From a virus: a stretch of DNA of 37,956 nucleotides. The notes under the pieces are model-generated. The model saw only the letters and a program-made list of their open reading frames with translations, was not told where the DNA came from and searched no databases. Positions 10,126-37,576 of this stretch are shown piece by piece (positions within the stretch are counted from its first letter, which is position 1; each line of letters begins with the position of its first letter). Made by a program: the position numbers and the translations under genes. The stretch is from positions 1 through 37,956 of the IMG/VR virus record IMGVR_UViG_3300009008_000107; one strand, 5' to 3'.

Positions 10126-12579
10126 ATGGGTAGAAAAGCTGGTACTAAAGAGTATAAAACTTTTGTTCAAGGTTTAATCACTGAGGCTAATGCCCTTACC
10201 TTTCCTGAGAACGCTAGTATTAATGAGGAGAACTTTGTTCTTAATCATGATGGTAGTAGAGAAAGACGGTTAGGGTTTGATGTAGAAACTAATAGCGATT
10301 GGCAATCTACTGGCTTCTCTTATACCAGCGAAGAAAGAAAAACTATATCTACTTTCGTATGGGCAAATGTAGCTAATAACGCAAATAAAAGCTTTTTAGT
10401 AGTACAGTATGGAACTAAGATATTCTTTTATGATATATCAGAGGACTCAACTAATATCTCTTCATCTTATGTAGCTTCCCTTACCTTAACAGAAAGGGTA
10501 GGAAGTACAGGTGGAGAAGAGTATGTAAGTTTTGCATCTGGTAACGGTATCCTTATTGTGACAGGTAGTGATCTTAAACCACAGTATGTATCATATGAGT
10601 CACCTAATGTTTTTAATAAAACAGAAATAAATATTAAGATAAGAGATTTCTGGGGTGTTGAGAACCTTAATCCTGCTCCTGGCTATGAAACACCTAATAT
10701 AGATACAAGACCTATAAGGTTAAACAAGTATCATAAATATAACCTTTTTAACCAAGGATGGGTGCTGAGTAAGATGATGAAATTCATATCTCATCACCCA
10801 TCTGTGGGTTATCAGGCAGCATTTTCAAACCTCACAGGAGACTACAACCCAAAGATAGGAGTTTATCCCTCAAATGCTGACATCCAACATCATGGTAACT
10901 ATACAAATGTAAGCTCTGGAAAAACTTCTTGGACTTCTTCAGAAGTTAAAGCCATGAACCTCGGTACTACTCCAGCTCCTAAAGGTAAATATATCATAGA
11001 TGCTTTTGAAAGGAGCAGTTCAAGAGAGTCAGAATCTGGTCTATCAGGTCTCACTTTGGATAAAGAAAAAGGAAGACCTTCAGTAGCCTGCTACCACTCT
11101 AGTAGGGTGTTCTACTCTGGTATCATCTCAGAACTAGAAGGGACTGAACCTAGAACCCCTAACTATAGTGGTATTATCTTCTTCAGTCCTACACTAACTA
11201 ATATAACTAAGATAGGTAACTGTCACCAAGAAGCTGACCCTACATCACAGGATATATCAGACTTAGTAGCTACTGATGGTGGTACGCTACTCCTACCTGA
11301 AGCTAATAAAATACTCCAACTGATATCTACTGGTTCTTCTATCTTTGTAATAGCAGATAACGGAATATGGGAGATCAGGTCTGGTGAATCAGGATTTGCA
11401 CCTGATGATTACCTTATATCTAAAGTATCAAATATAGGGGCTATAGGTAGGGACTCTATTATCTCAACTGAGATGGGGATCATGTATTGGTCTGATACTG
11501 GTATCTACATGATAACCCAACATGAGGTAACAGCAGAATACCATAGCTCTAATATATCTGAACAGAGTATTCAAACCTTCTTTGATTCAATACCTAATCA
11601 GAACAAGAAAAATGTAAAAGCTTTTTATGACCCCTCTGATAAGGTTGTAAGGTGGTTGTATAACTCTGACATATCATCAGATGGTATTAATTATAAGAAC
11701 AGGTATAACGCAGAGCTTATATTAGATATTAGATTAAAAGCTTTTTATAAAAACAAGATAGAAGAAAGTGAACCATATATAGCCTCTATTTTTAACACTA
11801 CACCTTTTAATACCTACACTGCACAAGCAACAGTAACAGACAACGGAGTTACTGTTGTTGACGGAGACTCTGAAGTAACTGATACTGTTACAGGTTTTAG
11901 GGGCAACACAGTACATAATAAATACCTGATATTTAAGAAGGTATTTAATAATAACACATACTCTACTGGTAATATACTAAGTGAGATAGGTGATATACTA
12001 TCTTCTGAGTATTTAGTACATACAGAGACATCTCTTGGTAATGTCTTATCTGAATCAGGTAACACCTTAACAACAGAGCTAGGGGATAACCTTACTTGGA
12101 CTGAGATAATAACAACTGAACATGAAGACCATATCAACAAAGAGGTTGTAATAGGTTATCAATGGTACTTATCTTTTGGGGAATACAACAACCTAGACTA
12201 TTTAGATTGGGATACTGAGAATTACAACTCTTATCTAATAACAGGCCATGACTTGTTTGAGAAGGTAACATCTACTAAACAGGTATCTTATATGTCTATG
12301 TTCTTTAATTATTTAGATAATTCAAGTTGTAAAGTAAGACCAAGGTGGAACTTCTCAGACCATGAGGACTCAGGTAAATGGGGTGAAGAGTTTGAAGGGT
12401 ATAAGCTTAAAGGTTTAGTTTTAGAAGACCCTGAGTATAACTATGGCTATTCAGTGGTGACAACTAAGAATAAACTAAGAGGGTCAGGGAAAGCTCTTAG
12501 TTTACATATCTCTTCAAGTGAAGGTAAACCTATGCACCTACTCGGTTGGTCTCTTGATATCCAAGGAACTACTATATGA
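10126..12579 (+). CDS. Tail tubular protein B (T7 gp12-like nozzle)
   Basis: The protein has 817 residues, close to T7 gp12 (794). The N-terminus KTFVQGLITEANALTFPENA followed by NEENFVLNHDGSRERRLGFD is the conserved opening of podophage nozzle proteins (f.qGlite...l.fP......E.N......G...rR.G.d). A beta-rich body follows, with GTTPAPKGKYIIDAFERSS and later FVIADNGIWEIRSG and GIMYWSDTGIYMITQ segments. The protein forms the hexameric tail nozzle that contacts the receptor and fibres. The last 4 bases overlap the next gene (ATGA). Confidence 0.92.
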   Translation: MGRKAGTKEYKTFVQGLITEANALTFPENASINEENFVLNHDGSRERRLGFDVETNSDWQSTGFSYTSEERKTISTFVWANVANNANKSFLVVQYGTKIFFYDISEDSTNISSSYVASLTLTERVGSTGGEEYVSFASGNGILIVTGSDLKPQYVSYESPNVFNKTEINIKIRDFWGVENLNPAPGYETPNIDTRPIRLNKYHKYNLFNQGWVLSKMMKFISHHPSVGYQAAFSNLTGDYNPKIGVYPSNADIQHHGNYTNVSSGKTSWTSSEVKAMNLGTTPAPKGKYIIDAFERSSSRESESGLSGLTLDKEKGRPSVACYHSSRVFYSGIISELEGTEPRTPNYSGIIFFSPTLTNITKIGNCHQEADPTSQDISDLVATDGGTLLLPEANKILQLISTGSSIFVIADNGIWEIRSGESGFAPDDYLISKVSNIGAIGRDSIISTEMGIMYWSDTGIYMITQHEVTAEYHSSNISEQSIQTFFDSIPNQNKKNVKAFYDPSDKVVRWLYNSDISSDGINYKNRYNAELILDIRLKAFYKNKIEESEPYIASIFNTTPFNTYTAQATVTDNGVTVVDGDSEVTDTVTGFRGNTVHNKYLIFKKVFNNNTYSTGNILSEIGDILSSEYLVHTETSLGNVLSESGNTLTTELGDNLTWTEIITTEHEDHINKEVVIGYQWYLSFGEYNNLDYLDWDTENYNSYLITGHDLFEKVTSTKQVSYMSMFFNYLDNSSCKVRPRWNFSDHEDSGKWGEEFEGYKLKGLVLEDPEYNYGYSVVTTKNKLRGSGKALSLHISSSEGKPMHLLGWSLDIQGTTI

Positions 12580-13034
12580 GTATAACTTATCAAGTTGAGA
12601 AACTAGTTAAGATATTACCAGAAGTAACTGAGCTTATAAAAGAACACTGGAAAGAGATAGCGCATGACCAAGATAAAATTAAACTTAATCCTAACTGGGG
12701 AAAGTATATAGAACTTGAACAACAAAACATTATTCATATCATAACAGTAAGAGAAAAGAGAAAGATTATAGGGTATAATTGTTTTATTGTGATGCCCCAT
12801 CTTCACCATAGGGATCATATCTTTGCAGTTAATGATGTACTTTTCCTAAAGAAAGAATATAGGAAAGGGATGGTAGGTATTAAACTAATAAAAAGATCAG
12901 AACAATACTTATCCTTACTTAATGTAAGTAAGATATACATAACAAGTAAGGTAAACACTACACTAGGTAAACTTCTCCCTAGATTAGGGTATGAAAAAGA
13001 AGAAGAGAACTATAGTAAATATATAGGAGATTAA
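12576..13034 (+). CDS. GNAT-fold acetyltransferase-like protein at the T7 gp13 position
   Basis: The protein has 152 residues. The central segment DVLFLKKEYRKGMVGIKLIK (about residues 87-106) fits GNAT motif A, with YRKGMVG at the acetyl-CoA phosphate-binding loop. A later NTTLGKLLPRLGYEKEEENY resembles motif B (N......LG F/Y). T7 gp13, an internal virion assembly protein lying in the same place between the nozzle and gp14 genes, also belongs to a GNAT-like family (DUF2833 type). It could therefore be a virion-assembly protein that has kept the fold, or an active acetyltransferase; sequence alone does not decide. It is coupled to the gp12-like gene by a 4-base overlap. Confidence 0.75.
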   Translation: MSITYQVEKLVKILPEVTELIKEHWKEIAHDQDKIKLNPNWGKYIELEQQNIIHIITVREKRKIIGYNCFIVMPHLHHRDHIFAVNDVLFLKKEYRKGMVGIKLIKRSEQYLSLLNVSKIYITSKVNTTLGKLLPRLGYEKEEENYSKYIGD

Positions 13035-18340: not shown

Positions 18341-21300
18341 ATGGGTTTATTTGATTTCAAAGTACCAGAACCTGAACTAGTGGGGAGGCAGATGCCTTCA
18401 AGACCAGTAGATTTAGAGGCAGATGCTAATCTGTTAAAACAGGTGGGCGGTTTAGGTATTGAAGCATGGGGTGCTAAGACAGCCGTAGATATGGGTGAAG
18501 ATTTAGTAGCTCTTGACCAGCCCCACCAAGAAGAGTTAGATAAAATCATGAAGAGTTTCAGTAATAAACTTATTGGTGTTGAAGAGATGAAGAAACAAAC
18601 AGGAATATCTTCAACTAAATATAACATCCAAAGAAACAAAATCATTAGAGAATATAAAACTAACTATCCCGGCTTCACAGAAGAGTTTAATAAGATCATA
18701 GCCTCTACAGCTCCTATTGGCTCTTCTAGTTCCTTTAGTGAGGGTGGTAGTATGGGAAAAATCTATGAGCATGATATAGAATATCATGAAGCCATCAGAG
18801 ATCAAACCTATGAAAGAGTTGCAGAGATGGCTAAAGGTTTAAAATGGGAACTACCTGCTGGATCTAAAGATGAACAGATTGAGTGGTTCAAGGCATCACT
18901 TGAAGCAGCTAACACCTATTTCTTATCAGCGAAAACCTATGTTCAAAGGATTAATTCAGGGAGTTTATTACCTTATGAAGAAGCAAAAACTATTAGAGAT
19001 TGGGACGGTATAGCTGCTCATACTATTGAAGCAGAGTTTGTGGAATATATTAAAGAGAAATTCCCTGAGTTTGAAGGGGAGTCTGTCCAAGATATACATT
19101 TTGATGATAGACCAGAAGCGTTAGAACATTGGAATATATTTTCTGCTAGTTATGTGAACGAGAATATAGGTTCAATGAGACATCACTCTCCTAAAGATTT
19201 GTATGGAACTGGTGGTCTCTTAAAAGGATTAGAAGGGGTAAATCATAAAATAAAACAAACCCTATCTACTGGTATAGATGAAGAAGATAAGACACGGAAG
19301 AGGGATAGGTTTTTTAAGGCAAAGTTAATTGATAAGTTAAGAGAGTCTGGTGATCCAGCTATTAAAGCTTACTTAGATGCTGATACTTTTGCTAGTGTAT
19401 TCAGTAGTTCTGGTGAAGAGTTAGCAGCGTTGTTTATGGAACAGGGTCAGATTGGAGTAGATGTTTTAAGGAAAGCTCTTGATAATAAAGGGGTGACTGA
19501 ATACTTAGATTATATCCGTTCATCTGGAAGACTTGGGGAAGAAGATGAAAGTGTTTTAGCTACTGATGTAGTTAATGTGATCTCTGGTATTACCTTGAAG
19601 ATAGACAGAGATCTAGATGATGAGTTTAAGGTGGGTAGATATATAGATGCTGTGAAAGGTGGTATGGATATTATGACATCCACAAAGGGAGATTTACCCC
19701 CTGAGACTGTCTTAAACTTCTATGACATACCACCTACTGTTAAAGATAAGTTACGGGAAGATCACCCAGATATATATAACGAGTTACAGGTTAATGCAAA
19801 CTCTTCCTTGAGTATGGTGTCTGGTAGATTAGCTGAAAACTTAGATAGGTTATTTGATCCAAAGACTATGGATTACTCTCCCCCTACCTCAGTTAATAAC
19901 TACCAAGCTTCTGTTTTTTGGAAGGATGGGGTAGTAACTGAAGAAGGTTTTGATATAGGATTAGGTAAGGGATTAGGTATAGAGAAGGTTGGAAGAAAGG
20001 TAACAACTGATAGACCTTCTACTGAATTTAAAAGACTTGAAAAGGTATTAGCTTTTAAGAATAAACTAGATCACCTCTTAGTTAAATGGAAAGAATCTTT
20101 AGGTGAAGCAGGAGATGTAAAGGCTTTCTGGAATACAAGAAATAGGTTAGATATTACAGACTATGTAGCTAATACTGTTGAGACAGAGGAAGAACCACCT
20201 AAAAAAAAATCTAAAATTACAGGGATAGGAGCTGAGGTAACAGAGGATCTCGCTACTGGATTGAAACAAGCACCACAAGATATAGCTACAGGTGTAAAAG
20301 GTTTCACTAAATCTATTGGAGAACTGAAAGATAGGATGGATGAGGCTGTCAAAGGTTCTATGAAAAATAAACTTGACAAAGGTATTATAGGTATTGAGTC
20401 TCTCTATGATATGATAGTACCTGATGCAGAAGGTGGAGAGCTTCCTCTGGTTGAGCAGTTGAAGATTGAGGGATCGGCTATTGTTGGTCAGGAACCAGAC
20501 GCTGAGACGATTGTTAAAATTGCAGGTGCAAAAAATCCAGCAGATGTAGCGTTCTCATATTTAGGGCTAGACGAAAACACTGAAGAAGGTGCTGATGCGA
20601 TTAGAGGTTTCTTTAATAATGCAGTTGGTGATTGGAACCCAGACAATCAAAACAATGAAGAGTTTGCAGCTTCTAAATATTGGTGTGCTGTATTTCTCGC
20701 ACAAGTATTAAAAGACTCTGGTATTGATACTGAGGAAGCATTAGGAGGAAAAGACCCATTTGATCAAATTCGAGCAATACCCTATCTAAAAATTGGTAGT
20801 CCTGTTGAGCCAGACCAAATTAAATCAGGCGATATTATGATTAAAATGCACAGCCCAGAAGAACGAGATGAGTTCAACTCAGGTGTGGCACATGTAGGTA
20901 TCGTTGTTAAGATAAAAGGTAAAGAAGTTTATTTTATTGGTGGCAATACTGGAAACAAGGTAGAGCTGTCTTCATATAATATGGATGAAAAAGATGTTAG
21001 GTTTAGGAGGATAAAAGGTGTAACTGATATACCAACAGAAAGCTTACCATCATTACTAAGACTGAGAGCTGGTAAATTTAGTAGGGAGATAAAAAATAAG
21101 CTTGTTTCAATGTATAATGATGTAAGACCACTTAGTAAACCACCCCTTGAAGATACCAAGAAGGTAGCTAAAGGGATTGCTGAGGAGATAGGAGAAGATG
21201 AAGGCGTTGTCCAGAAGATATTAGATTTTCTCCTACCTAATGCCGAAGCAGGTACTCTGTCTGCCTTAAAAGCCCTTACTAAGGTTAATAAAGGAAGGGA

Positions 21301-21853
21301 GGCAGCCGATATTTTAAAAGGGTTATCTGGGGAAATAAAAATTGCAAATAAAACTTCTCGGAACATGGGGGCTGTAGGGGCAAAAGCTATTACACCTAAA
21401 TATATTGAGAAAACCATATCAAAAGATAAATCAATTCTTGACTTTGGGGCTGGTAAAGATGCAGCTCATGCAGAACAATTAAAAAAGAAAGGATATGATG
21501 TGACAGCTTATGAGTTTGGTGATAATATTAACCCTGAACTCCATGATATTAATGCACTAAGCAAAAAGTATGATGTTGTATATGCTTCTAATGTTATTAA
21601 TACACAAGGTTCTGAAAGAATGTTAAATGCTACACTCGAACAGATAAGCAGTTCAATGGATGAAGGTGGAAAGGTTATACTTAATTTCCCACTAAGCCCA
21701 AGGAAAGGGGCTTGGTTGTTCCAGAAAGGTAGCTCTTTAGAACAAAAGAAACTTGATATAGATAATCTTGAACAAGTTTTAGGTAAGTATTTTAAGAACA
21801 TTAAAAGAATTGGGGGAGGAAAGTATGATCCTCTTTATGAACTAAGCAGATAA
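18341..21853 (+). CDS. Giant internal virion protein with CHAP/NlpC-like hydrolase and C-terminal methyltransferase domains
   Basis: The protein has 1170 residues; the start follows GAGGAGAAATAAG, one base after the previous stop. Residues 1-640 are helical, ejection-protein-like, with no motif. Residues ~760-900 form a cysteine hydrolase: YWCAVFLAQVLKDSG with Cys782, GDIMIKMHS, then AHVGIVVKIKGKEVYFIGGN with His851 and Asn869. This fits CHAP/NlpC-P60 peptidoglycan hydrolases and could open the cell wall at DNA entry. Residues ~1030-1170 form a class I methyltransferase: SILDFGAGKDAAHAEQLKKK (D1034), DVTAYEFGDN, YDVVYASNVINTQGS and SSSMDEGGKVILNFPLSP. That form resembles methyltransferases in phage and plasmid 'polyvalent' proteins. 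Similar linkers, VPDAEGG and LPNAEAG, flank the hydrolase. The methyl acceptor is unknown. Confidence 0.85.
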   Translation: MGLFDFKVPEPELVGRQMPSRPVDLEADANLLKQVGGLGIEAWGAKTAVDMGEDLVALDQPHQEELDKIMKSFSNKLIGVEEMKKQTGISSTKYNIQRNKIIREYKTNYPGFTEEFNKIIASTAPIGSSSSFSEGGSMGKIYEHDIEYHEAIRDQTYERVAEMAKGLKWELPAGSKDEQIEWFKASLEAANTYFLSAKTYVQRINSGSLLPYEEAKTIRDWDGIAAHTIEAEFVEYIKEKFPEFEGESVQDIHFDDRPEALEHWNIFSASYVNENIGSMRHHSPKDLYGTGGLLKGLEGVNHKIKQTLSTGIDEEDKTRKRDRFFKAKLIDKLRESGDPAIKAYLDADTFASVFSSSGEELAALFMEQGQIGVDVLRKALDNKGVTEYLDYIRSSGRLGEEDESVLATDVVNVISGITLKIDRDLDDEFKVGRYIDAVKGGMDIMTSTKGDLPPETVLNFYDIPPTVKDKLREDHPDIYNELQVNANSSLSMVSGRLAENLDRLFDPKTMDYSPPTSVNNYQASVFWKDGVVTEEGFDIGLGKGLGIEKVGRKVTTDRPSTEFKRLEKVLAFKNKLDHLLVKWKESLGEAGDVKAFWNTRNRLDITDYVANTVETEEEPPKKKSKITGIGAEVTEDLATGLKQAPQDIATGVKGFTKSIGELKDRMDEAVKGSMKNKLDKGIIGIESLYDMIVPDAEGGELPLVEQLKIEGSAIVGQEPDAETIVKIAGAKNPADVAFSYLGLDENTEEGADAIRGFFNNAVGDWNPDNQNNEEFAASKYWCAVFLAQVLKDSGIDTEEALGGKDPFDQIRAIPYLKIGSPVEPDQIKSGDIMIKMHSPEERDEFNSGVAHVGIVVKIKGKEVYFIGGNTGNKVELSSYNMDEKDVRFRRIKGVTDIPTESLPSLLRLRAGKFSREIKNKLVSMYNDVRPLSKPPLEDTKKVAKGIAEEIGEDEGVVQKILDFLLPNAEAGTLSALKALTKVNKGREAADILKGLSGEIKIANKTSRNMGAVGAKAITPKYIEKTISKDKSILDFGAGKDAAHAEQLKKKGYDVTAYEFGDNINPELHDINALSKKYDVVYASNVINTQGSERMLNATLEQISSSMDEGGKVILNFPLSPRKGAWLFQKGSSLEQKKLDIDNLEQVLGKYFKNIKRIGGGKYDPLYELSR

Positions 21854-30719: not shown

Positions 30720-30790
30720 CTTACCTACCCCTTACCTCTTACCTTATCGTTCCATAGCGTGCTTGTATGGAGCTAATAAGATATATCTTA
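30720..30790. promoter_or_regulatory. Structured intergenic region between primase-helicase and polymerase genes
   Basis: The 105-base gap holds three parts. A perfect 14-bp palindrome TAAGATATATCTTA (30777-30790) overlaps the primase stop. An inverted repeat TCCATA/TATGGA (30751-30756, 30766-30771) has a 9-base loop. Three GGTAAG copies lie on the minus strand (30720-30725, 30731-30736, 30738-30743). No T-run follows, so it is not a simple terminator. It may be a control site or a replication start. Confidence 0.45.
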
Positions 30791-32422
30791 GAAGTCTCCC
30801 TTGCCTGTTCCAAGCTCAAGCTCTTCAAGAGTACCTGATTCTTTATTGAAGAACAGTTCGAGAGTCCCTGTTTCACCTGACAACCTATTCTTTATTATCC
30901 GTAAGGTTACAGTGTTTCGATCCACTTCATCTTCAGCCTGTTGATCTCTCTCAAGTCCCCACATATCAGTTGACCACCGCCATAAAGCCCTACTACCAGT
31001 GAACTGACCACCTAATACCTTTGCCCCTGTAGCGTGATCTATATTAACTCCCTTTGGATTATTAAGATGGGATACAAGAAAGATGGTGATATCAAGAGAG
31101 ATGACAAGGGTAGATATATCAGCCATGATTTTATTTAATAGATCATTAGCTTCAGAGCTGGATAAGTGAGCTGTTAAGGCAGTCATAGGATCAATAAATA
31201 TCCACTTAATATTCTCACTTGCCATGTATCTTATAATATTAACTATATCCCCCCACTTTTTAAACCCTTGACTGTCATATAAAGATATATGAGGCGCAAC
31301 TTGGTTAAGAACTTCTTGTACCTCATCTTTATTATAGATGGTGTCAGGTAAATGAAGTCTTTTGTTTACTATACCCCCTATTAGTTTCTTCATTGTAAGA
31401 GCAGGGGATTCTTCGAGGCTGAAAATACCTACCTTTTCCTTGTGTTCAAAGATAAGGTGTTTAATTATCTCATTGATAAAGCAAGACTTACCAGCCCCAG
31501 GACCTGCCCCTATAGATATAATTTGCTGTGTTCTAAGTCCGTATGTTAACCTGTTCAAATCTTTAAATTTATAATCAAGTCCACTTTCTATTGGTTCAAG
31601 TACCCTCTCTTCCAGATCAAAGCCAGATACTATACCACTTGGTTTATAATCTCTTGCAGACCAGAAGGCAGATAAAAACTGTCTCTCCTTACCTTGTTGG
31701 TGCATGTCATTAACATCTTTCAGGGGTAGATGAATACGCTTTACTCCATCATATCCTAATAACTTAATAGTCTTCTCTGTTATTAAATCACCTGCCTTAT
31801 CCATGTCAAAGCAAAGCAATACCTCTTCATGGCTCTTGATGAACTCTATGTTGTCTTGAATAGATGCTATATCACCAGTACCATTGTTTAGGGATACCAC
31901 CGAGTGAGACCAAGTAGGGTACTTATCATTTAATATCTGATAAGCTGACATACAAGATAAGTGATCCTCACAAATAACTAACTTCTTACCTGATACTGAT
32001 AGGTCTTGACCAAACAACTGTCTCTTCTGTTTGGTGTTACCTATATTTATAAACCTCTTATTGTTTATATCTCTTCTATGATAACCCACCTGATTACCCA
32101 TGTTATCTTTAATGGGGAAGAACATAAACTCAGGGCTTCCATCTGTTTCTGAATAGGTTTCCCTACAACCATATCTCTCATAAACATCAGGGTTGATACC
32201 CCTATATTTATGCTTGACTTTATAACTCTCAATAGAATATTCCTCCTCTTGCTCACTCATAACCCCCCTTTCCTGTTCCTGTTCTTGTTTTTGTTTATCA
32301 ACCGGCACACTAAAAGAACATCTTGTGCAAAACCACTGGTTGCCATCTTCCATCAGGAACAGGTGGTCTCCAGTTCGATCCCTTCCATTCTTCCTGCATG
32401 ATGGGCAAGGTTTGTTCTTCAT
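30788..32422 (-). CDS. Primase-helicase (T7 gp4-like, bifunctional)
   Basis: The protein has 544 residues against 566 in T7. The zinc domain has Cys6, Cys9, Cys32 and Cys35 (PCPSC...FCTRC). TOPRIM primase: KKLVICEDHLS with Glu152, VLLCFDMDKAGD with Asp206/Asp208, and LKDVNDM at 234-240. RecA-type hexameric helicase: Walker A GAGPGAGKS (305-313), VGIFSLEES, and Walker B IKWIFIDPM with Asp411. Late motifs are GSRALWRWSTDMWGLERD and RIIKNRLSGETG. It unwinds DNA and makes primers for the family A polymerase. A promoter lies ~45 bases upstream of its ATG. A second in-frame start at Met55 has its own ribosome site. Confidence 0.95.
   Translation of the reverse strand: MKNKPCPSCRKNGRDRTGDHLFLMEDGNQWFCTRCSFSVPVDKQKQEQEQERGVMSEQEEEYSIESYKVKHKYRGINPDVYERYGCRETYSETDGSPEFMFFPIKDNMGNQVGYHRRDINNKRFINIGNTKQKRQLFGQDLSVSGKKLVICEDHLSCMSAYQILNDKYPTWSHSVVSLNNGTGDIASIQDNIEFIKSHEEVLLCFDMDKAGDLITEKTIKLLGYDGVKRIHLPLKDVNDMHQQGKERQFLSAFWSARDYKPSGIVSGFDLEERVLEPIESGLDYKFKDLNRLTYGLRTQQIISIGAGPGAGKSCFINEIIKHLIFEHKEKVGIFSLEESPALTMKKLIGGIVNKRLHLPDTIYNKDEVQEVLNQVAPHISLYDSQGFKKWGDIVNIIRYMASENIKWIFIDPMTALTAHLSSSEANDLLNKIMADISTLVISLDITIFLVSHLNNPKGVNIDHATGAKVLGGQFTGSRALWRWSTDMWGLERDQQAEDEVDRNTVTLRIIKNRLSGETGTLELFFNKESGTLEELELGTGKGDF
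32263..32274 (-). promoter_or_regulatory. Internal ribosome-binding site for a short helicase form
   Basis: Inside the primase-helicase gene, AGGAAAGGGGGG lies two bases before the in-frame ATG at 32260 (Met55), just after the zinc domain. Starting here would give a 490-residue protein without zinc fingers, like the T7 gp4B helicase made beside full-length gp4A. Confidence 0.6.
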
Positions 32423-32588: not shown

Positions 32589-32828
32589 CTAATAATCAAT
32601 AAGATATTCTTCCATCTCAAGCTCTGTCCCTATCTCTTGTAGATACCCATCTGCTATCCCCCAATATGTACCTGTTTCATAATCAAGATGGGGATCTAAA
32701 TACCCCATAGATATTAGTTTGTCTATAATAGCTGCATGTTTCAATTCCTCTTCATATTCTTGTGTAAGGTGTTGGTCAGTTTCTATACTTGATACACAAG
32801 GAAAACTACCATCTAATAAAGTTTTCAT
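32589..32828 (-). CDS. Small acidic hypothetical protein
   Basis: The protein has 79 residues and is acidic. The middle has a helical segment EYEEELKHAAIIDKLISMGY, then YETGTYWGIADGYLQEIGTE, ending EEYLIDY. The ATG overlaps the stop of the DUF1566 gene (ATGA at 32825-32828) and has GGAGG upstream inside it, so the two are coupled. No family was recognised. Confidence 0.65.
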   Translation of the reverse strand: MKTLLDGSFPCVSSIETDQHLTQEYEEELKHAAIIDKLISMGYLDPHLDYETGTYWGIADGYLQEIGTELEMEEYLIDY

Positions 32829-33136
32829 ATTTTTACCTCCCTTACGGCACGGACACAGTGGGAGTAGTCCTTATAACCGTAAAGCACATAGCCATTAAGG
32901 AAATATACGAGCCACACACTTTCATTTTCGTAAGCATAGGTAGTAGATGACCAATAATAGGAACTCTCAAGAAACCCCTTTACATGTGTTGCTGGGTTAT
33001 ACTCAGAATAATCTATTACACTAAATAGCTCTTCAATAGTTGGAAGCCTCCAACCGTCTCCTAAAGATTCACAATACTTAAGGGCTTCATCCCAAGTAAC
33101 ATCTTCCATTGTGTCTTTGTGCCATTCAAGTTTCAT
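32825..33136 (-). CDS. DUF1566 (Lcl C-terminal, lectin/sulfatase-modifying-factor-like fold) protein
   Basis: The protein has 103 residues and consists of one domain: VTWDEALKYCESLGDGWRLP, then TIEELFSVIDYS, SSYYWSSTTYAYENESVWLV and YKDYSHCVRAVRE. This pattern (W.eA..yC..l..gWRLPt..EL......yWSst........V......g......k.....vR.VR) is the DUF1566/Lcl domain, a C-type-lectin-like fold. Such domains usually bind ligands on cell surfaces. Here there is no signal peptide and the gene is in a cytoplasmic replication/modification block. It follows the ATP-grasp gene by 13 bases with GGGAGG upstream, so it may belong to the amide-bond cassette. Confidence 0.8.
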   Translation of the reverse strand: MKLEWHKDTMEDVTWDEALKYCESLGDGWRLPTIEELFSVIDYSEYNPATHVKGFLESSYYWSSTTYAYENESVWLVYFLNGYVLYGYKDYSHCVRAVREVKI

Positions 33137-33149
33137 GTTTTTACCTCCC

Positions 33150-33926
33150 TTACATCTCTTGTTTAATTGCAGTTACATAACTCTCAAGGGTTGTACCTGT
33201 CACCCCTGATGCTGTATTAGCTTCAAGAAAATACAACCTACCAGATTCTACCTCTAACATATCCAAGGAACAAAAGTCAAGGTTTAATTTACAGGCTATA
33301 TCAACACACCTTTGGTGCTGATCCTCTGTTATATTCACCCCTTCTCTTGCAAAGATATATCCGTTCTTATAGTTTCTGATCTTCTTGTTTAAGGTTATCC
33401 CCTCCTCTTCTCTTCTTCTTGGATTCATCTTTCTTTTTTCCTGTAAGTCAATCACATTTCCCCTGAACACATGAACCCTTATTTCTCTTTTAATATTTGG
33501 TGGTTCAATAGTATATAGTGGACTGTTTACAAGCTCTCCTATATCTTCAGCTACCACTATACCTTGTCCTTGTTTACCAGTTAATCTTTGTCTGCAATAA
33601 ACTGTTTCCCCTTGTTCAATAGCTCTTTGCGCCCCCTGTATAGTTCGGAGATAAGGTACTTGCCAACCGAAAGGCAAAGCCATAAAGCTAAAGAGTTTAT
33701 TTGTAGCTATCCTTACTGAACTTGGTTTGTTTAAGATACTTTGATCATCCCATGAAGGGCAAGTTGAGTTACCCCAATTAATTATTAGGTGATCTCTCTT
33801 TGGTCTATAGTTCTTATCAGGATAAACCCTCAAGGTTTGAACCCCCTCCTCTCTTAGTCTCTTTGCAAGTACCCTTGAACTCTTACTGGACATCTTGTAC
33901 GGATATAATCTAACTTTCTTTCTCAT
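33150..33926 (-). CDS. ATP-grasp ligase
   Basis: The protein has 258 residues. A pre-ATP-grasp domain contains HLIINWGNSTCPSWDD (46-61). The ATP-binding part has VYCRQRLTGKQGQGIVVAED (109-128), a lid-like Gly-rich loop with Arg113, and then Glu141 at the hinge (YTIEPP). REIRVHVFRGNVID (147-160) is followed by catalytic acids Asp222 (CSLDMLEV) and Glu235/Asn237 (YFLEANTASG). This E.N ending is the hallmark of ATP-grasp enzymes, which join a carboxylate (activated as acyl phosphate) to an amine or thiol. It lies directly downstream of an amidotransferase and an amidoligase, so an amide or peptide product is likely. The ribosome site is AGGAGGAGG. Confidence 0.88.
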   Translation of the reverse strand: MRKKVRLYPYKMSSKSSRVLAKRLREEGVQTLRVYPDKNYRPKRDHLIINWGNSTCPSWDDQSILNKPSSVRIATNKLFSFMALPFGWQVPYLRTIQGAQRAIEQGETVYCRQRLTGKQGQGIVVAEDIGELVNSPLYTIEPPNIKREIRVHVFRGNVIDLQEKRKMNPRRREEEGITLNKKIRNYKNGYIFAREGVNITEDQHQRCVDIACKLNLDFCSLDMLEVESGRLYFLEANTASGVTGTTLESYVTAIKQEM

Positions 33927-33934
33927 ACCTCCTC

Positions 33935-34789
33935 CTATAAGCAGGTTGTAAATTCATAGTAGTCTGAATAACTACTGTTTAATTGCTTGTTTATTTCTAT
34001 GACTGTAGAATCTCCCTTAACAGTCTTGAAACATGCATCACAACAAATAAAGGGTTCGTCATCTAAGAATATATCTTTTGCTTTATTCGCTCTGACTGTT
34101 CCATTACACCAATCACAGACCTCATATATCTCATAATAAGGGGTAGATTTTGGTGTCTTAACTGGTACTACCTTTTCATTCTTCGTGTTCCATTGAAAAT
34201 CTTGCCACTTATAATTATTTTTAGCAGGTGGAGTTATAGCTACAGGTGGAAGGTAAGATTTGTTACTGTACCAGTTATCACCATCCCATTCACCTTTATC
34301 AGGGTTGCATATCCTTATCTGATTCTTACTATCAAGGAACGCTAACTTGCTATACCCTATAAAACTACCCATCATTTTTAAGATAGATGGGTTTAAGTAG
34401 AAGTTATTGGGAAGTCCATGTAATACCTGTTCAATGAAGTGCCTTGTATCTGATTTACTCTTGTCCTTATCAGTCTTTACATTGTGAATAATACCATTAT
34501 GTATCATACATAGGTTGTTATTAATCTGGAAAGGGTGGCAGTTATCAATATCAATCTTTCCATGGGTTTTAATCCTAAAGTGAATAAGAAAATTAGAGCT
34601 TGGATTTTCTTTTTCTGCTGTTCTTAGTGCCTTATAAAAGGGAGTAAAGTGAAGATACTTCTCTATTTTAATCCTCCCTTTCTCTATATAAGCAAAGCCT
34701 GCTGAATCAGGATTAGCATCATAGCAAAGTTTTAATCTTTTCTTTGTGATATGTTTTCCTATTGGTTTCTTTACGATTGCAATACACAT
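33935..34789 (-). CDS. Class II glutamine amidotransferase (Ntn hydrolase) with C-terminal zinc ribbon
   Basis: The product is 284 residues. I chose ATG 34789 because the catalytic Cys must be residue 2 (MCIAIVKKP) and GGAGG lies upstream; a longer reading from 34837 would bury it. Class II GATase motifs follow: DSAGFAYI (28-35), FLIHFRIKTHG (67-77), DNCHPFQI (82-89), CMIHNGIIHN (94-103) and KSDTRHF (112-118). Such domains release ammonia from glutamine for a partner synthetase. No synthase domain is attached. Instead residues 225-253 (CDWC...CCDAC) form a zinc ribbon. The partner is probably the neighbouring amidoligase or ATP-grasp enzyme. Confidence 0.9.
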   Translation of the reverse strand: MCIAIVKKPIGKHITKKRLKLCYDANPDSAGFAYIEKGRIKIEKYLHFTPFYKALRTAEKENPSSNFLIHFRIKTHGKIDIDNCHPFQINNNLCMIHNGIIHNVKTDKDKSKSDTRHFIEQVLHGLPNNFYLNPSILKMMGSFIGYSKLAFLDSKNQIRICNPDKGEWDGDNWYSNKSYLPPVAITPPAKNNYKWQDFQWNTKNEKVVPVKTPKSTPYYEIYEVCDWCNGTVRANKAKDIFLDDEPFICCDACFKTVKGDSTVIEINKQLNSSYSDYYEFTTCL

Positions 34790-34793
34790 AGTG

Positions 34794-35885
34794 CTACACC
34801 TCCTTGAGTTGTTGTTTAATCTTTCTTCTACCATCATTCCAGAACTTATATATCTCTGGATATTTCTTCTTGTTATCTCTTAAAAATTTATCATAGCTTT
34901 CAATATCTCCTGAATCTTTCAGTCCTATGTTTGTTGTATAATCTAATACAGAATCAAGAAAGGTAAGGTTCTTTAATATTTCAAAATGAGACCTTGGTTG
35001 ACGAAACATTCTTACCTCAACAGTTGCTTTATTCTGAAGATTGATTCTCTGATACCTTGAAGATTGCCACCCCCTTTTTTCTTCTCTAATTTGCAGTGCT
35101 ATTTTTTTATTTTTATGACAATATGTAGTGTCTCTTCTACCTGCTACCCTATACAAGATGTCATCATTAGAGCAGATAAGGTTAGTAAATTTGTATAGGT
35201 GAAGAGACGAAACAAACCTACCTCTATCAACATGAATATGCATACCACAAAATTTTGAATACCTAATAAATTTACTATCTGTAATTCTTTTAGAGATTTT
35301 TTTGTTCTTTTCCCTCCAATGTTCAATAGATAAAGGGGGAAATACAACCTCAAAACCACCCTGTGGTAAACTTCCATCTTTCTTTATGAGTACCTCGTCT
35401 TCTGAAAATTCGCTTGCCAATATAGTAGAATTAAAACAATAATGATAACGCTCTCTTCTGGCTATCTCTATTTCAACTCCAAAGTCTCCATTCTGAATTG
35501 GGAATACCAACCATTTAGCATTATATACCAAAGGTTCTGATCGTGGCGCACACCTTGAACAAAAATCTCGACCATCGTCTCCTGTATGAGTTAATGGTAT
35601 GTTACAACAATCACATACCCTTATAAACTTTTTACAGCTTTGACAAATTCCACCTTCTTTCCGTACTTTTACATCTCCACATATCTTGCACATTGGGAAA
35701 GCGGAAAAGCAATCTCCACAAAAAGGTTCATGTTCAAGGTAAAAACTATCAAAATGTTTTTCGCCACATTCTCCGCATGATGAAAGAGAAATATAGCAAT
35801 TTGCACAACAATATCCCCCTTGAAATTTCTCTAAAACTTCCCTTGGTAGGAAAATATCACATCTCATACAGTTTGTACTATCCAT
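34794..35885 (-). CDS. Amidoligase (glutamine-synthetase fold, COOH-NH2 ligase) with N-terminal zinc-ribbon array
   Basis: The protein has 363 residues. Residues 1-112 hold eight Cys pairs (C6/C9, C27/C30, C37/C40, C56/C59, C66/C69, C81/C84, C91/C94, C109/C112), enough for about four zinc ribbons. Residues 134-320 match Amidoligase_2: DFGVEIEIAR (E138, E140), KKDGSLPQGGFEVVFPP (D170, E179), CGMHIHVDRG (H216, H218), RYQRINLQNK and ATVEVRMFRQP (E290, R292). These residues bind metal and ATP and activate a carboxyl group for amide formation. A basic helical tail follows. It is the first gene of a cassette with a class II amidotransferase and an ATP-grasp ligase. Inverted repeats lie just upstream. 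The substrate is unknown. Confidence 0.9.
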   Translation of the reverse strand: MDSTNCMRCDIFLPREVLEKFQGGYCCANCYISLSSCGECGEKHFDSFYLEHEPFCGDCFSAFPMCKICGDVKVRKEGGICQSCKKFIRVCDCCNIPLTHTGDDGRDFCSRCAPRSEPLVYNAKWLVFPIQNGDFGVEIEIARRERYHYCFNSTILASEFSEDEVLIKKDGSLPQGGFEVVFPPLSIEHWREKNKKISKRITDSKFIRYSKFCGMHIHVDRGRFVSSLHLYKFTNLICSNDDILYRVAGRRDTTYCHKNKKIALQIREEKRGWQSSRYQRINLQNKATVEVRMFRQPRSHFEILKNLTFLDSVLDYTTNIGLKDSGDIESYDKFLRDNKKKYPEIYKFWNDGRRKIKQQLKEV

Positions 35886-35903
35886 TTTTTACTCCTCTTT
35901 TTG

Positions 35904-35918
35904 TGTGGATGTTCCTCG
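35904..35918. promoter_or_regulatory. Inverted-repeat element, copy 1 (degenerate), before the amidoligase gene
   Basis: This reads TGTGGA-TGT-TCCTCG on the plus strand. The left arm and the flanking T-run and GAGGAG match the other four copies, but the right arm has lost its ACA. It lies between the probable -10 region and ribosome site of the amidoligase gene. Confidence 0.6.
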
Positions 35919-35935
35919 CTTTTTCTACAGTTTTC

Positions 35936-35958
35936 TTAATAGTAACTGTTACTATTAA
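35936..35958. promoter_or_regulatory. Perfect 23-bp palindrome (operator candidate) before the amidoligase gene
   Basis: Arms TTAATAGTAAC and GTTACTATTAA are exact inverted copies of 11 bases around a single central T. On the minus strand the right part gives TATTAA, which sits where the -10 box would lie for the amidoligase gene. A dimeric repressor or activator site is likely; it occurs only once in the window as far as I can see. Confidence 0.7.
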
Positions 35959-36002
35959 AAAAAAACAAAAAATAAAGGGGGATACTGTCCCCCCCCTTTA
36001 TT
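35957..36002 (-). terminator. Intrinsic terminator after the 147-residue gene
   Basis: The stem pairs AATAAAGGGGG (35971-35981) with CCCCCTTTATT (35992-36002), overlapping the stop codon of the gene at 36001. On the minus strand it is followed by TTTATTTTTTG and nine more T. It is closely similar to the two terminators further right. Confidence 0.85.
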
Positions 36003-36444
36003 AGTTTTTCCAGTGAATCTGGATTAATTCGTTTAACTTTTTACAGTCTGCGTCTTCAATATTTGCTATTATTAGTTTCTGTAGTTTATTAATAAATGAT
36101 ACTTCTTCTTTTATAGCTTGCAAGGCATATTGTTTTATCCATTTCCTGAAACCATCTACAACTTTTACATTGTTCATAATTTCTTTGGATTCAGCAAGCT
36201 TTCGGCATGCCGTTAAGCCTAAAGGTCTAACACCGTTTGTGTATTCCTTAACGCTCCAGGCCTCACCCCCGTACCTTATTTTTGCAATTAGAAAAGTTAC
36301 AGCTTCAGAGCTTGTAAAACCTTCAGGGTAATTGGTTTCGAGATCGGAAAGAAAAGATAAATAAATCTCTCCTCTTTTTGTTTTTGACACTTCTTCATCG
36401 TTACCCAATGTTCTTAAGATCGCCATTTGATTTTTGATTTTCAT
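36001..36444 (-). CDS. Hypothetical protein of the right-end gene series (147 residues)
   Basis: The product is of unknown function. The start ATG at 36444 has GAGGAGC upstream, preceded by inverted-repeat copy 2. The sequence is soluble and helical: an N-terminal MKIKNQMAILRTLGNDEEVS, a middle part TSSEAVTFLIAKIRYGGEAW, then RPLGLTACRKLAESKEIM, and a Lys-rich helical C-terminal half. No catalytic motif is apparent. The stop overlaps its own terminator. By eye it has more CG and more varied codons than the phage core genes, which suggests separate acquisition. Confidence 0.75.
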   Translation of the reverse strand: MKIKNQMAILRTLGNDEEVSKTKRGEIYLSFLSDLETNYPEGFTSSEAVTFLIAKIRYGGEAWSVKEYTNGVRPLGLTACRKLAESKEIMNNVKVVDGFRKWIKQYALQAIKEEVSFINKLQKLIIANIEDADCKKLNELIQIHWKN

Positions 36445-36466
36445 TTTTCTTGCTCCTCTTTTTTTG

Positions 36467-36482
36467 TGTGGAATATTCCACA
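36467..36482. promoter_or_regulatory. Inverted-repeat element, copy 2
   Basis: TGTGGAATATTCCACA is a perfect 16-bp palindrome, the most symmetric of the five copies. It is followed on the plus strand by GGTTTATAAT and preceded by T-run and GAGGAG (minus sense: TATAAACC, repeat, A-run, ribosome site). It lies between the stop of the 88-residue gene and the start of the 147-residue gene. Confidence 0.8.
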
Positions 36483-36485
36483 GGT

Positions 36486-36752
36486 TTATAATCTTTTATA
36501 TATTTTCATGTCATCACACCATCTCTCTACCTTTATCTTTAATACTTCAAAATATATTAAATCATATAATGCTTGCAGGTGATCATCTAATGTAAAACAA
36601 TCGTCCCAACTAATTACAAGCGAGCCGCTATAGAGCTCTTTTTCGTTTGCTTGTAATTCGTAAATGTAAAATTCACTATCATGTTCAATTTCAATTAATT
36701 TCATCTTGTCCTTTATGCTGTTAAACTGGTTTAACAGGTCAGTTGTACCCAT
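36486..36752 (-). CDS. Hypothetical protein of the right-end gene series (88 residues)
   Basis: The product is of unknown function. I chose ATG 36752 because GAGGAG lies upstream and the repeat element ends just before it; a longer reading from 36821 would run through the repeat and T-tract. The protein is acidic: MGTTDLLNQFNSIKDKMKLI, then EFYIYELQANEKELYSGSLV, and an end rich in Leu, Tyr and Lys (VLKIKVERWCDDMKIYKRL). The stop codon lies in the TATAAACC segment upstream of repeat copy 2, and no terminator separates it from the next gene, unlike the other units. Confidence 0.7.
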   Translation of the reverse strand: MGTTDLLNQFNSIKDKMKLIEIEHDSEFYIYELQANEKELYSGSLVISWDDCFTLDDHLQALYDLIYFEVLKIKVERWCDDMKIYKRL

Positions 36753-36774
36753 TTTTTTCACTCCTCTTTTTTTG

Positions 36775-36789
36775 TGTGGATATTCCACA
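36775..36789. promoter_or_regulatory. Inverted-repeat element, copy 3
   Basis: TGTGGA-TAT-TCCACA lies 22 bases upstream of the ATG at 36752. In minus sense the order is TATTATAAACA, repeat, A-run, GAGGAG, start, the same layout as copies 2 and 4. Confidence 0.8.
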
Positions 36790-36810
36790 TGTTTATAATA
36801 TTTTACATAT

Positions 36811-36856
36811 AAAAAAAACAAAAAATAAAGGGGGAGAAAACTCCCCCCTCTTTATT
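36811..36856 (-). terminator. Intrinsic terminator after the 104-residue gene
   Basis: The stem pairs GGGGGAG (36830-36836) with CTCCCCC (36841-36847) around AAAA. It is extended by AATAAA/TTTATT after a small bulge. On the minus strand TTTATTTTTTG and eight more T follow. It lies 7 bases past the stop codon at 36863. Confidence 0.85.
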
Positions 36857-36862
36857 CATTAG

Positions 36863-37177
36863 TTAAAAATTCGCAATAATAAAACGATCATCAGTAGAAT
36901 ACACCCTGCCGACAAGGATAACAGTGGTTTCATTTTCAATTTGCTCGATAGTTTGATAATCATTATTATATTGATTCTGAAAATCTTTTAAGTTTTCATA
37001 TTCTGTGAAGTCGCAACAAATTGCAATAACATCAAGCACTATATCTTTGCCGATGTCGTCGCTTAATTCTTCGAGGTGATCAAATAAAGCCGTTAAGCCG
37101 TCATAACTGAAGTTGTCAGGCCTTAACTGTTCAAATGCTCTACGAAAACTGTATTCATTCACTCTGTTTATTATCAT
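36863..37177 (-). CDS. Conserved hypothetical protein (104 residues)
   Basis: The product is 104 residues and acidic; ATG 37177 has GGAAGGG upstream. The sequence YSFRRAFEQLRPDNFSYDGL, ALFDHLEELSDDIGKDIVLD and VIAICCDFTEYENLKDFQNQ belongs to a pattern I recognise from phage and bacterial mobile-element proteins (FSy.gl.aLfeyLe.le...g.eieLDvIaiCCdftEy..l.ef...Y). No function is established that I know of. The strong acidity would also suit a DNA mimic, but that is speculation. It has its own upstream repeat (copy 4) and terminator. Confidence 0.75.
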   Translation of the reverse strand: MIINRVNEYSFRRAFEQLRPDNFSYDGLTALFDHLEELSDDIGKDIVLDVIAICCDFTEYENLKDFQNQYNNDYQTIEQIENETTVILVGRVYSTDDRFIIANF

Positions 37178-37197
37178 TTTTTCCCTTCCTTTTTTTG

Positions 37198-37212
37198 TGT
37201 GGAATATCCACA
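37198..37212. promoter_or_regulatory. Inverted-repeat element, copy 4
   Basis: TGTGGA-ATA-TCCACA lies 20 bases upstream of the ATG at 37177. Flanks are almost identical to copy 3: minus sense ATATGTAAAATATTATAAAC before the repeat, and an A-run with GGAAGGG after it. Confidence 0.8.
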
Positions 37213-37233
37213 GGTTTATAATATTTTACATAT

Positions 37234-37278
37234 AAAAAAAAACAAAAAATAAAGGGGGGAGAAAACCCCCCCTTTATT
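37234..37278 (-). terminator. Intrinsic terminator after the 75-residue gene
   Basis: The stem pairs AATAAAGGGGGG (37248-37259) with CCCCCCTTTATT (37267-37278) around a 7-base loop, overlapping the stop codon at 37277. On the minus strand TTTATTTTTTG and nine more T follow. It is a very strong intrinsic terminator. Confidence 0.88.
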
Positions 37279-37504
37279 AAATGTTTTTATTATGCTTTTC
37301 CAACACTTCTATTTCGATTTGCTCCAAAATATTGTCCCAATACCAATCAACATTTGTTTCCCATGGCATGGGAAGTTTCAGTTTCCCATGCTTTGCCCTG
37401 TTCAATCGATATAACATGTCAATTTCTGAATTTAGTAGCGGGATAGAGCAGTTACCTTCCAGTTTTTTTATTTCTTTCTTTAAAACATCTTTAATTTCAC
37501 TCAT
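37277..37504 (-). CDS. Hypothetical protein, first gene of the minus-strand block (75 residues)
   Basis: The product is of unknown function. ATG 37504 has GGAAGGTG upstream and repeat copy 5 before that. The sequence starts with a Lys/Glu helix (SEIKDVLKKEIKKLEGN), then SEIDMLYRLNRAKHGKLKLP, WETNVDWYWDNI and a helical end. As the gene nearest the right-hand control region it should be among the first expressed. Small first-expressed phage proteins often act on host functions, but nothing in the sequence identifies a target. Confidence 0.7.
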   Translation of the reverse strand: MSEIKDVLKKEIKKLEGNCSIPLLNSEIDMLYRLNRAKHGKLKLPMPWETNVDWYWDNILEQIEIEVLEKHNKNI

Positions 37505-37525
37505 CTTTTCACCTTCCTTTTTTTG

Positions 37526-37540
37526 TGTGGATGTTCCACA
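37526..37540. promoter_or_regulatory. Inverted-repeat element, copy 5
   Basis: TGTGGA-TGT-TCCACA lies 21 bases upstream of the ATG at 37504. The A-run and ribosome-site flank is shared with the other copies, but the TATTATAAAC flank is missing, replaced by an A-run and GGGTAATAGTGCCG in minus sense. Confidence 0.75.
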
Positions 37541-37576
37541 CTTTTTTTTACGGCACTATTACCCTTTGCCTTTATA

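Follow-up and report, generated by a model that had tools for sequence, protein, structure and literature searches.

Gene content and layout of the locus

The DNA analysed here (the window) is a linear record of 37,956 bases. Between positions 33150 and 35885 it carries three co-directional minus-strand ORFs, all confirmed at the place given in a preliminary description of this DNA. The features of the locus are:

34794..35885, minus strand: amidoligase with a GS fold (Amidoligase_2), 363 aa, assigned from Pfam profile, invariant residues and structural model
Amidoligase residues ~6-112: N-terminal array of CxxC zinc-ribbon-like motifs
Amidoligase residues ~131-350: GS-like domain
33935..34789, minus strand: class II (Ntn) glutamine amidotransferase, 284 aa, with an MCIAI start and a C-terminal CxxC...CxxC segment
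33150..33926, minus strand: ATP-grasp ligase of the ArgX/LysX/RimK type, 258 aa (phrog_2599, 1.9e-56)
30788..32422, minus strand: DNA primase/helicase downstream of the trio (phrog_239, 4.6e-153)
35884..35923, minus strand: leader repeat directly upstream of the amidoligase, a member of direct repeat family D1
35971..36002, minus strand: terminator-like GC hairpin with a T run, lying past the preceding ORF and ahead of the amidoligase

The layout is operon-like, with gaps of 4 nt between amidoligase and amidotransferase and 8 nt between amidotransferase and ATP-grasp genes. The sequence AAGAGGAG precedes the amidoligase start and TAGGAGGAGG precedes the ATG of the ATP-grasp gene. For the amidotransferase, a Shine-Dalgarno sequence, AAGGAGGT, lies ahead of an ATG at 34789, 4 nt past the amidoligase stop. 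Judging from this context, the true start is likely 34789 (MCIAI...) rather than 34837 as in the ORF list. Class II amidotransferases require a catalytic cysteine at position 2, and a start at 34789 makes the catalytic Cys residue 2.

The leader repeat is 40 nt long and occurs in five copies in the early region (35884, 36447, 36755, 37178 and 37506). The copies, spanning 35884-37545, contain a GTGTGGA...TTCCACA palindrome and mostly lie directly upstream of ORFs; D1 is a possible early-gene promoter or leader. The palindrome TGTGGAATATTCCACA was also considered as an element and set aside, having a single match even at 3 mismatches; the D1 leader repeat is the better description. Because the hairpin separates the preceding ORF from the amidoligase, the trio may form its own transcription unit, and hairpin and leader repeat together would fit early expression of the trio as a separate unit. 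Further similar GC hairpins with T runs at 36827-36850 and 37248-37278 are candidate terminator units. Terminator-like sites number 31, where 3.9 would be expected, and many of the 31 are overlapping versions of three hairpins.

The trio is co-directional with the minus-strand replication and early genes, whereas the plus strand carries the virion genes. Replication genes follow the cassette in relatives as well, in the same relative position in CW02, CVT22, T2S2 and MEP401/402. The window is from a marine-type, Zobellviridae/Cobavirinae-like podovirus, and its TerL protein is 64% identical to that of Celeribacter phage P12053L (Zobellviridae, Cobavirinae). No equivalent of the trio is annotated in P12053L, while Zobellviridae more distant than P12053L have one. 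Directly after the ATP-grasp gene lies a 103-aa Lcl_C domain protein (32825-33136; 84 bits), which has no relative beside the compact cassettes examined (see below).

Conserved catalytic residues and predicted folds

The amidoligase scores 31.5 bits against PF12224 (Amidoligase_2), above the curated Pfam cut-off of 22. Residues E138, E140, D170, H216, H218, E290 and R292 are kept at 97-100% in an alignment of 124 sequences, in which the majority of the N-terminal CxxC pairs are kept too. The predicted structure is of moderate confidence (pLDDT 73.4); in this model, residues 131-363 match YbdK, glutamine synthetase, plant glutamate-cysteine ligase and Dop with Z of 10-12 (YbdK 11.5-11.7, glutamine synthetases 10-11). 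Profile and model thus identify an amidoligase with a predicted glutamine-synthetase-like fold.

The amidotransferase carries the full GlmS-type motif set: Cys2, R..THG, NxHP, HNG and SDT. Among 134 sequences, Cys2, R72, T75, H76, G77, N83, H85 and P86 are kept at 89-100%, as are H97, N98, G99, S113, D114 and T115. NCBIfam glmS matches at 1.9e-10, and the PDB profile matches are GlmS/GFAT chains. The protein falls under the curated Pfam cut-offs, which are detection thresholds and not biochemical traits (GATase_4, 19.4 versus 23; GATase_6, 18.3 versus 27), and we therefore regard it as a divergent member of the class.

The ATP-grasp protein gave a confident model (pLDDT 94.8), which superposes on ArgX (3vpb) with Z 22.0 and 2.7 A across 238 residues, on LysX (3vpd) with Z 21.2 and on RimK (5zct) with Z 20.4. 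D-Ala-D-Ala ligases come next (Z 17-19), slightly behind these three. Residues K77, E148, R150, D222, E235 and N237, which we take from knowledge of the fold to bind ATP and Mg, are kept at 100% in 90 sequences. The model confirms an ATP-grasp fold of the RimK/LysX-like superfamily. The window protein shares this predicted fold with RimK, LysX and ArgX over its whole length (Z 19-22), but identity is just 13-18% and the curated RimK scores are not reached: Pfam RimK gives 16.5 bits against a cut-off of 21, and TIGR00768, the RimK equivalog for S6 modification, gives 23 against 143.4. The PHROG label of the family is S6 glutaminyl transferase. Between them, PHROG, NCBIfam and PDB profiles identify both this protein and the amidotransferase despite their low Pfam scores.

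The preliminary description had named these three enzyme classes, noted their full motif sets and linked them to the amidoligase work of Iyer and Aravind. Its assignments held up in profile and structure searches, the residues it listed are nearly invariant in the relatives aligned (n = 124, 134 and 90), and the link to the amidoligase work is upheld. We consider the enzyme set to be real, conserved and probably active.

The trio recurs in compact and long architectures

IMG/VR scans with the single window amidoligase or ATP-grasp sequence returned no relatives, and alignment-based queries were needed. These found 66 ATP-grasp loci, 59 amidotransferase loci and at least 80 amidoligase loci; the best 80 of the latter were kept, which biases co-occurrence counts taken from the amidoligase. 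Within the flanks fetched, both partners stand beside the ATP-grasp gene in 57 of the 66 ATP-grasp loci. In eight of the nine exceptions the contig breaks off within 2 kb of the gene, on the flank that would hold the partners. The adjacency noted at the outset is thus kept in relatives and, as it recurs in dozens of distant phage contigs, is not due to chance.

Two main architectures were observed. The long one comprises a class I amidotransferase, a class II amidotransferase, a COOH-NH2 ligase, the amidoligase and the ATP-grasp enzyme; 22 of 59 loci also have a cyclotransferase. The compact one, the form found in the window, is present in 22 other IMG/VR loci, 20 of which have the order amidoligase-amidotransferase-ATP-grasp; every gap lies between -20 and +43 nt in 13 of these 20. 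The count includes near-identical loci (L091-L093; L096/L141; L116/L118/L121). In an intermediate form (e.g. L018, L028 and L030) the gene order runs ligase, amidoligase, amidotransferase, ATP-grasp. Profile comparison shows homology between the compact and long architectures for their amidoligases (E 3e-12) and amidotransferases (E 3.7e-9), and the window ATP-grasp is 38% identical to those of CW02 and CVT22. In some long cassettes (L044, L045, L051, L055, L059 and L079), the class I and class II amidotransferase genes are separated by a second ATP-grasp gene of divergent sequence.

The gene content is nested. A profile search of the 22 whole records that have only the amidoligase-amidotransferase pair found an ATP-grasp of this family in none, and the same profile recovered 8 of 8 positive controls. 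The pair is often encountered without the ATP-grasp, the ATP-grasp hardly ever without the pair, which suggests that the pair is the core and the ATP-grasp an added step.

Members of the ATP-grasp family were found almost exclusively in viral sequence. The sole match from a scan of genome contigs with short patterns, which may miss relatives, lies on a possibly viral MAG contig of 5.8 kb and offers no useful bacterial context. In the ATP-grasp tree most members of compact trios group together with weak support (0.66), and we do not claim a single origin of the compact trio.

Relation to known phage cassettes

The same families were described together in a 5-7-gene "peptidoglycan modification" cassette of phages phiEco32, PhiRIO-1, LUZ24 and CW02 (Iyer 2009; Hardies 2013). 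The accounts of these two studies given in PMC5498523, PMC6256558 and PMC11945000 add PA11, CVT22 and PhiM6, and the function they relay is a putative modification of peptidoglycan that would stop superinfection or prepare lysis. One cassette holding these families is on record for many podoviruses, and for LUZ24-like phages the trio has already been listed. The novelty implied by the preliminary description was therefore overstated: the trio is already predicted in kind, and its compact form is the variant part.

The window resembles the phiEco32-type cassette in having the same amidoligase, class II amidotransferase and ATP-grasp families, co-directional in one cassette upstream of the primase/helicase. 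It differs in that its amidoligase bears zinc ribbons and its three genes are contiguous, and it has no match to profiles of the COOH-NH2 ligase, the class I amidotransferase or the gamma-glutamyl cyclotransferase. With these three components missing, the window is a compact relative and not the full cassette.

The amidoligase-amidotransferase pair has been reported in OM43 phages (PMC10580990). Methylophilales phages MEP401 and MEP402 and mycobacteriophage Marvin share with the window an amidoligase of the same profile with a short class II amidotransferase directly after it, but no ATP-grasp was found in their whole genomes; MEP401 and MEP402 have the closest relatives of the window amidotransferase among named phages (41-45% identity). 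Stenotrophomonas phage StenR_269 has a consecutive class II amidotransferase, annotated glutamine synthetase and related ATP-grasp (30%). Its gene order is different, however, and its middle protein is weakly comparable to the window amidoligase. Among the named phages examined, the compact trio is absent.

Proposed mechanism and candidate substrates

Our leading interpretation, which may prove wrong as readily as right, is that the trio represents, in compact form and in the early region, the phiEco32-/PhiRIO-1-/LUZ24-type cassette and acts most likely on a peptidoglycan precursor. We infer one shared pathway with the following order. The amidotransferase would hydrolyse glutamine through its N-terminal Cys2, releasing ammonia. 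With ATP, the GS-fold amidoligase would activate a carboxylate and couple it to this ammonia or another amine. The ATP-grasp enzyme would then activate a carboxylate of the same product and attach an amino acid, in the manner of RimK, LysX and D-Ala-D-Ala ligase. The first two steps would be the core and the third an extension, as the nested gene content suggests. The enzymes would most likely modify a peptidoglycan precursor in the cytoplasm, or its stem peptide, at an early stage of infection. The phage could benefit from the remodelled wall, for instance against superinfecting phages or in the action of its own lysis enzymes.

The muropeptide is our best guess for the substrate, and it leads because of the D-Ala-D-Ala-ligase-like and YbdK/GS-like folds and the published proposal. 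That proposal comes from comparative genomics and has been repeated in annotation papers; one paper gives wall modification by phiEco32 as fact, citing only Iyer 2009, a computational study. In the literature found, no paper tests the substrate of the cassette and no experiment backs a peptidoglycan substrate. Three observations count against the cell wall: the window is without three components of the cited pathway; the closest ATP-grasp folds (RimK, LysX and ArgX) act on proteins or carrier proteins; and the zinc-ribbon segments would suit protein or nucleic-acid binding.

The last two make a protein target almost as natural, and protein tailing is the main rival to the muropeptide. Amino acids would be added to a host or phage protein such as a ribosomal protein or RNA polymerase subunit, or the protein would be amidated, with the zinc ribbons aiding recognition. 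We regard this as possible but somewhat unlikely. The PHROG label and the retained CxxC motifs of the amidoligase agree with it, as does the early expression suggested by the leader repeat and the replication-gene neighbourhood, and phage ATP-grasp enzymes of the R2K clade have been proposed to act on host proteins. However, the fold match does not fix the substrate, as D-Ala-D-Ala ligases score nearly equally, and no conserved substrate gene stands beside the trio.

All three folds are known from small-molecule pathways, and the product could be a small metabolite containing an amide, such as a compound for signalling, counter-defence or nitrogen storage. Synthesis of a secondary metabolite has been proposed for Marvin, as repeated in PMC10580990 (primary source, Mageeney 2012), and cyclotransferase genes accompany some cassettes. 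A metabolite nevertheless appears unlikely to us: no gene for export, resistance or further tailoring was found beside the trio, the conserved neighbours are chiefly replication genes, and the ATP-grasp family was found almost exclusively in viral sequence.

A more far-reaching reading, which we think improbable, is that the compact trio is a self-contained and hitherto unknown peptide-tagging system, in which the zinc-ribbon amidoligase and the ATP-grasp enzyme would act early in infection to give a specific host protein a short amide-linked tail. Besides replication genes, no conserved neighbours were seen around the window trio and the compact loci, so that a co-encoded peptide substrate is unlikely.

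The preliminary description had also listed a DNA base among possible targets. A carboxylated or aminated base of phage DNA would be amidated, as CmoY does on 5-carboxymethylcytosine. For phage DNA, amide ligation driven by ATP has a solid precedent, and some homologues are predicted to use glutamine-derived ammonia. We consider this reading very improbable here, since CmoY is an asparagine-synthetase homologue, neither GS-fold nor ATP-grasp, and no CmoA, CmoX, carboxymethyltransferase, base hydroxymethylase or cytosine C5-methyltransferase was recognised in the ORFs scanned.

Least probable is a graspetide-like ribosomal peptide, with the ATP-grasp acting on a small encoded precursor. The ligases PsnB, AMdnB and MdnC are among the structural matches of the ATP-grasp, and many marine relatives have a small acidic zinc-ribbon ORF on the downstream side. 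The window, though, encodes nothing related to this ORF, which is also present in phages that have the pair and no ATP-grasp, and no other short ORF is common to the window and its relatives.

Many marine contigs, as well as MEP401/402, encode the small acidic zinc-ribbon protein (L089:10002-10223 and relatives) downstream of their amidoligase genes. We considered it as a LysW-type carrier and rejected it, as it is absent from the window, has a variable C-terminus and occurs without the ATP-grasp.

Cassettes of this type are found in phages of many hosts, and their substrate has been a mere prediction since 2009. With its catalytic residues intact, the three-gene form is the smallest set in which to look for the substrate; the pair and the ATP-grasp are separable in nature, which hints at the order of steps.

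Other genes of the window

Two observations concern the virion side of the window. A 1170-aa protein (18341-21853) has an endolysin-like stretch at residues 778-894 and, near its C-terminus, a methyltransferase domain (residues 1024-1121; Pfam, 33.3 bits versus 27). Amid the virion genes lies a GNAT-like protein (12576-13034), and P12053L has a GNAT gene at the matching place.
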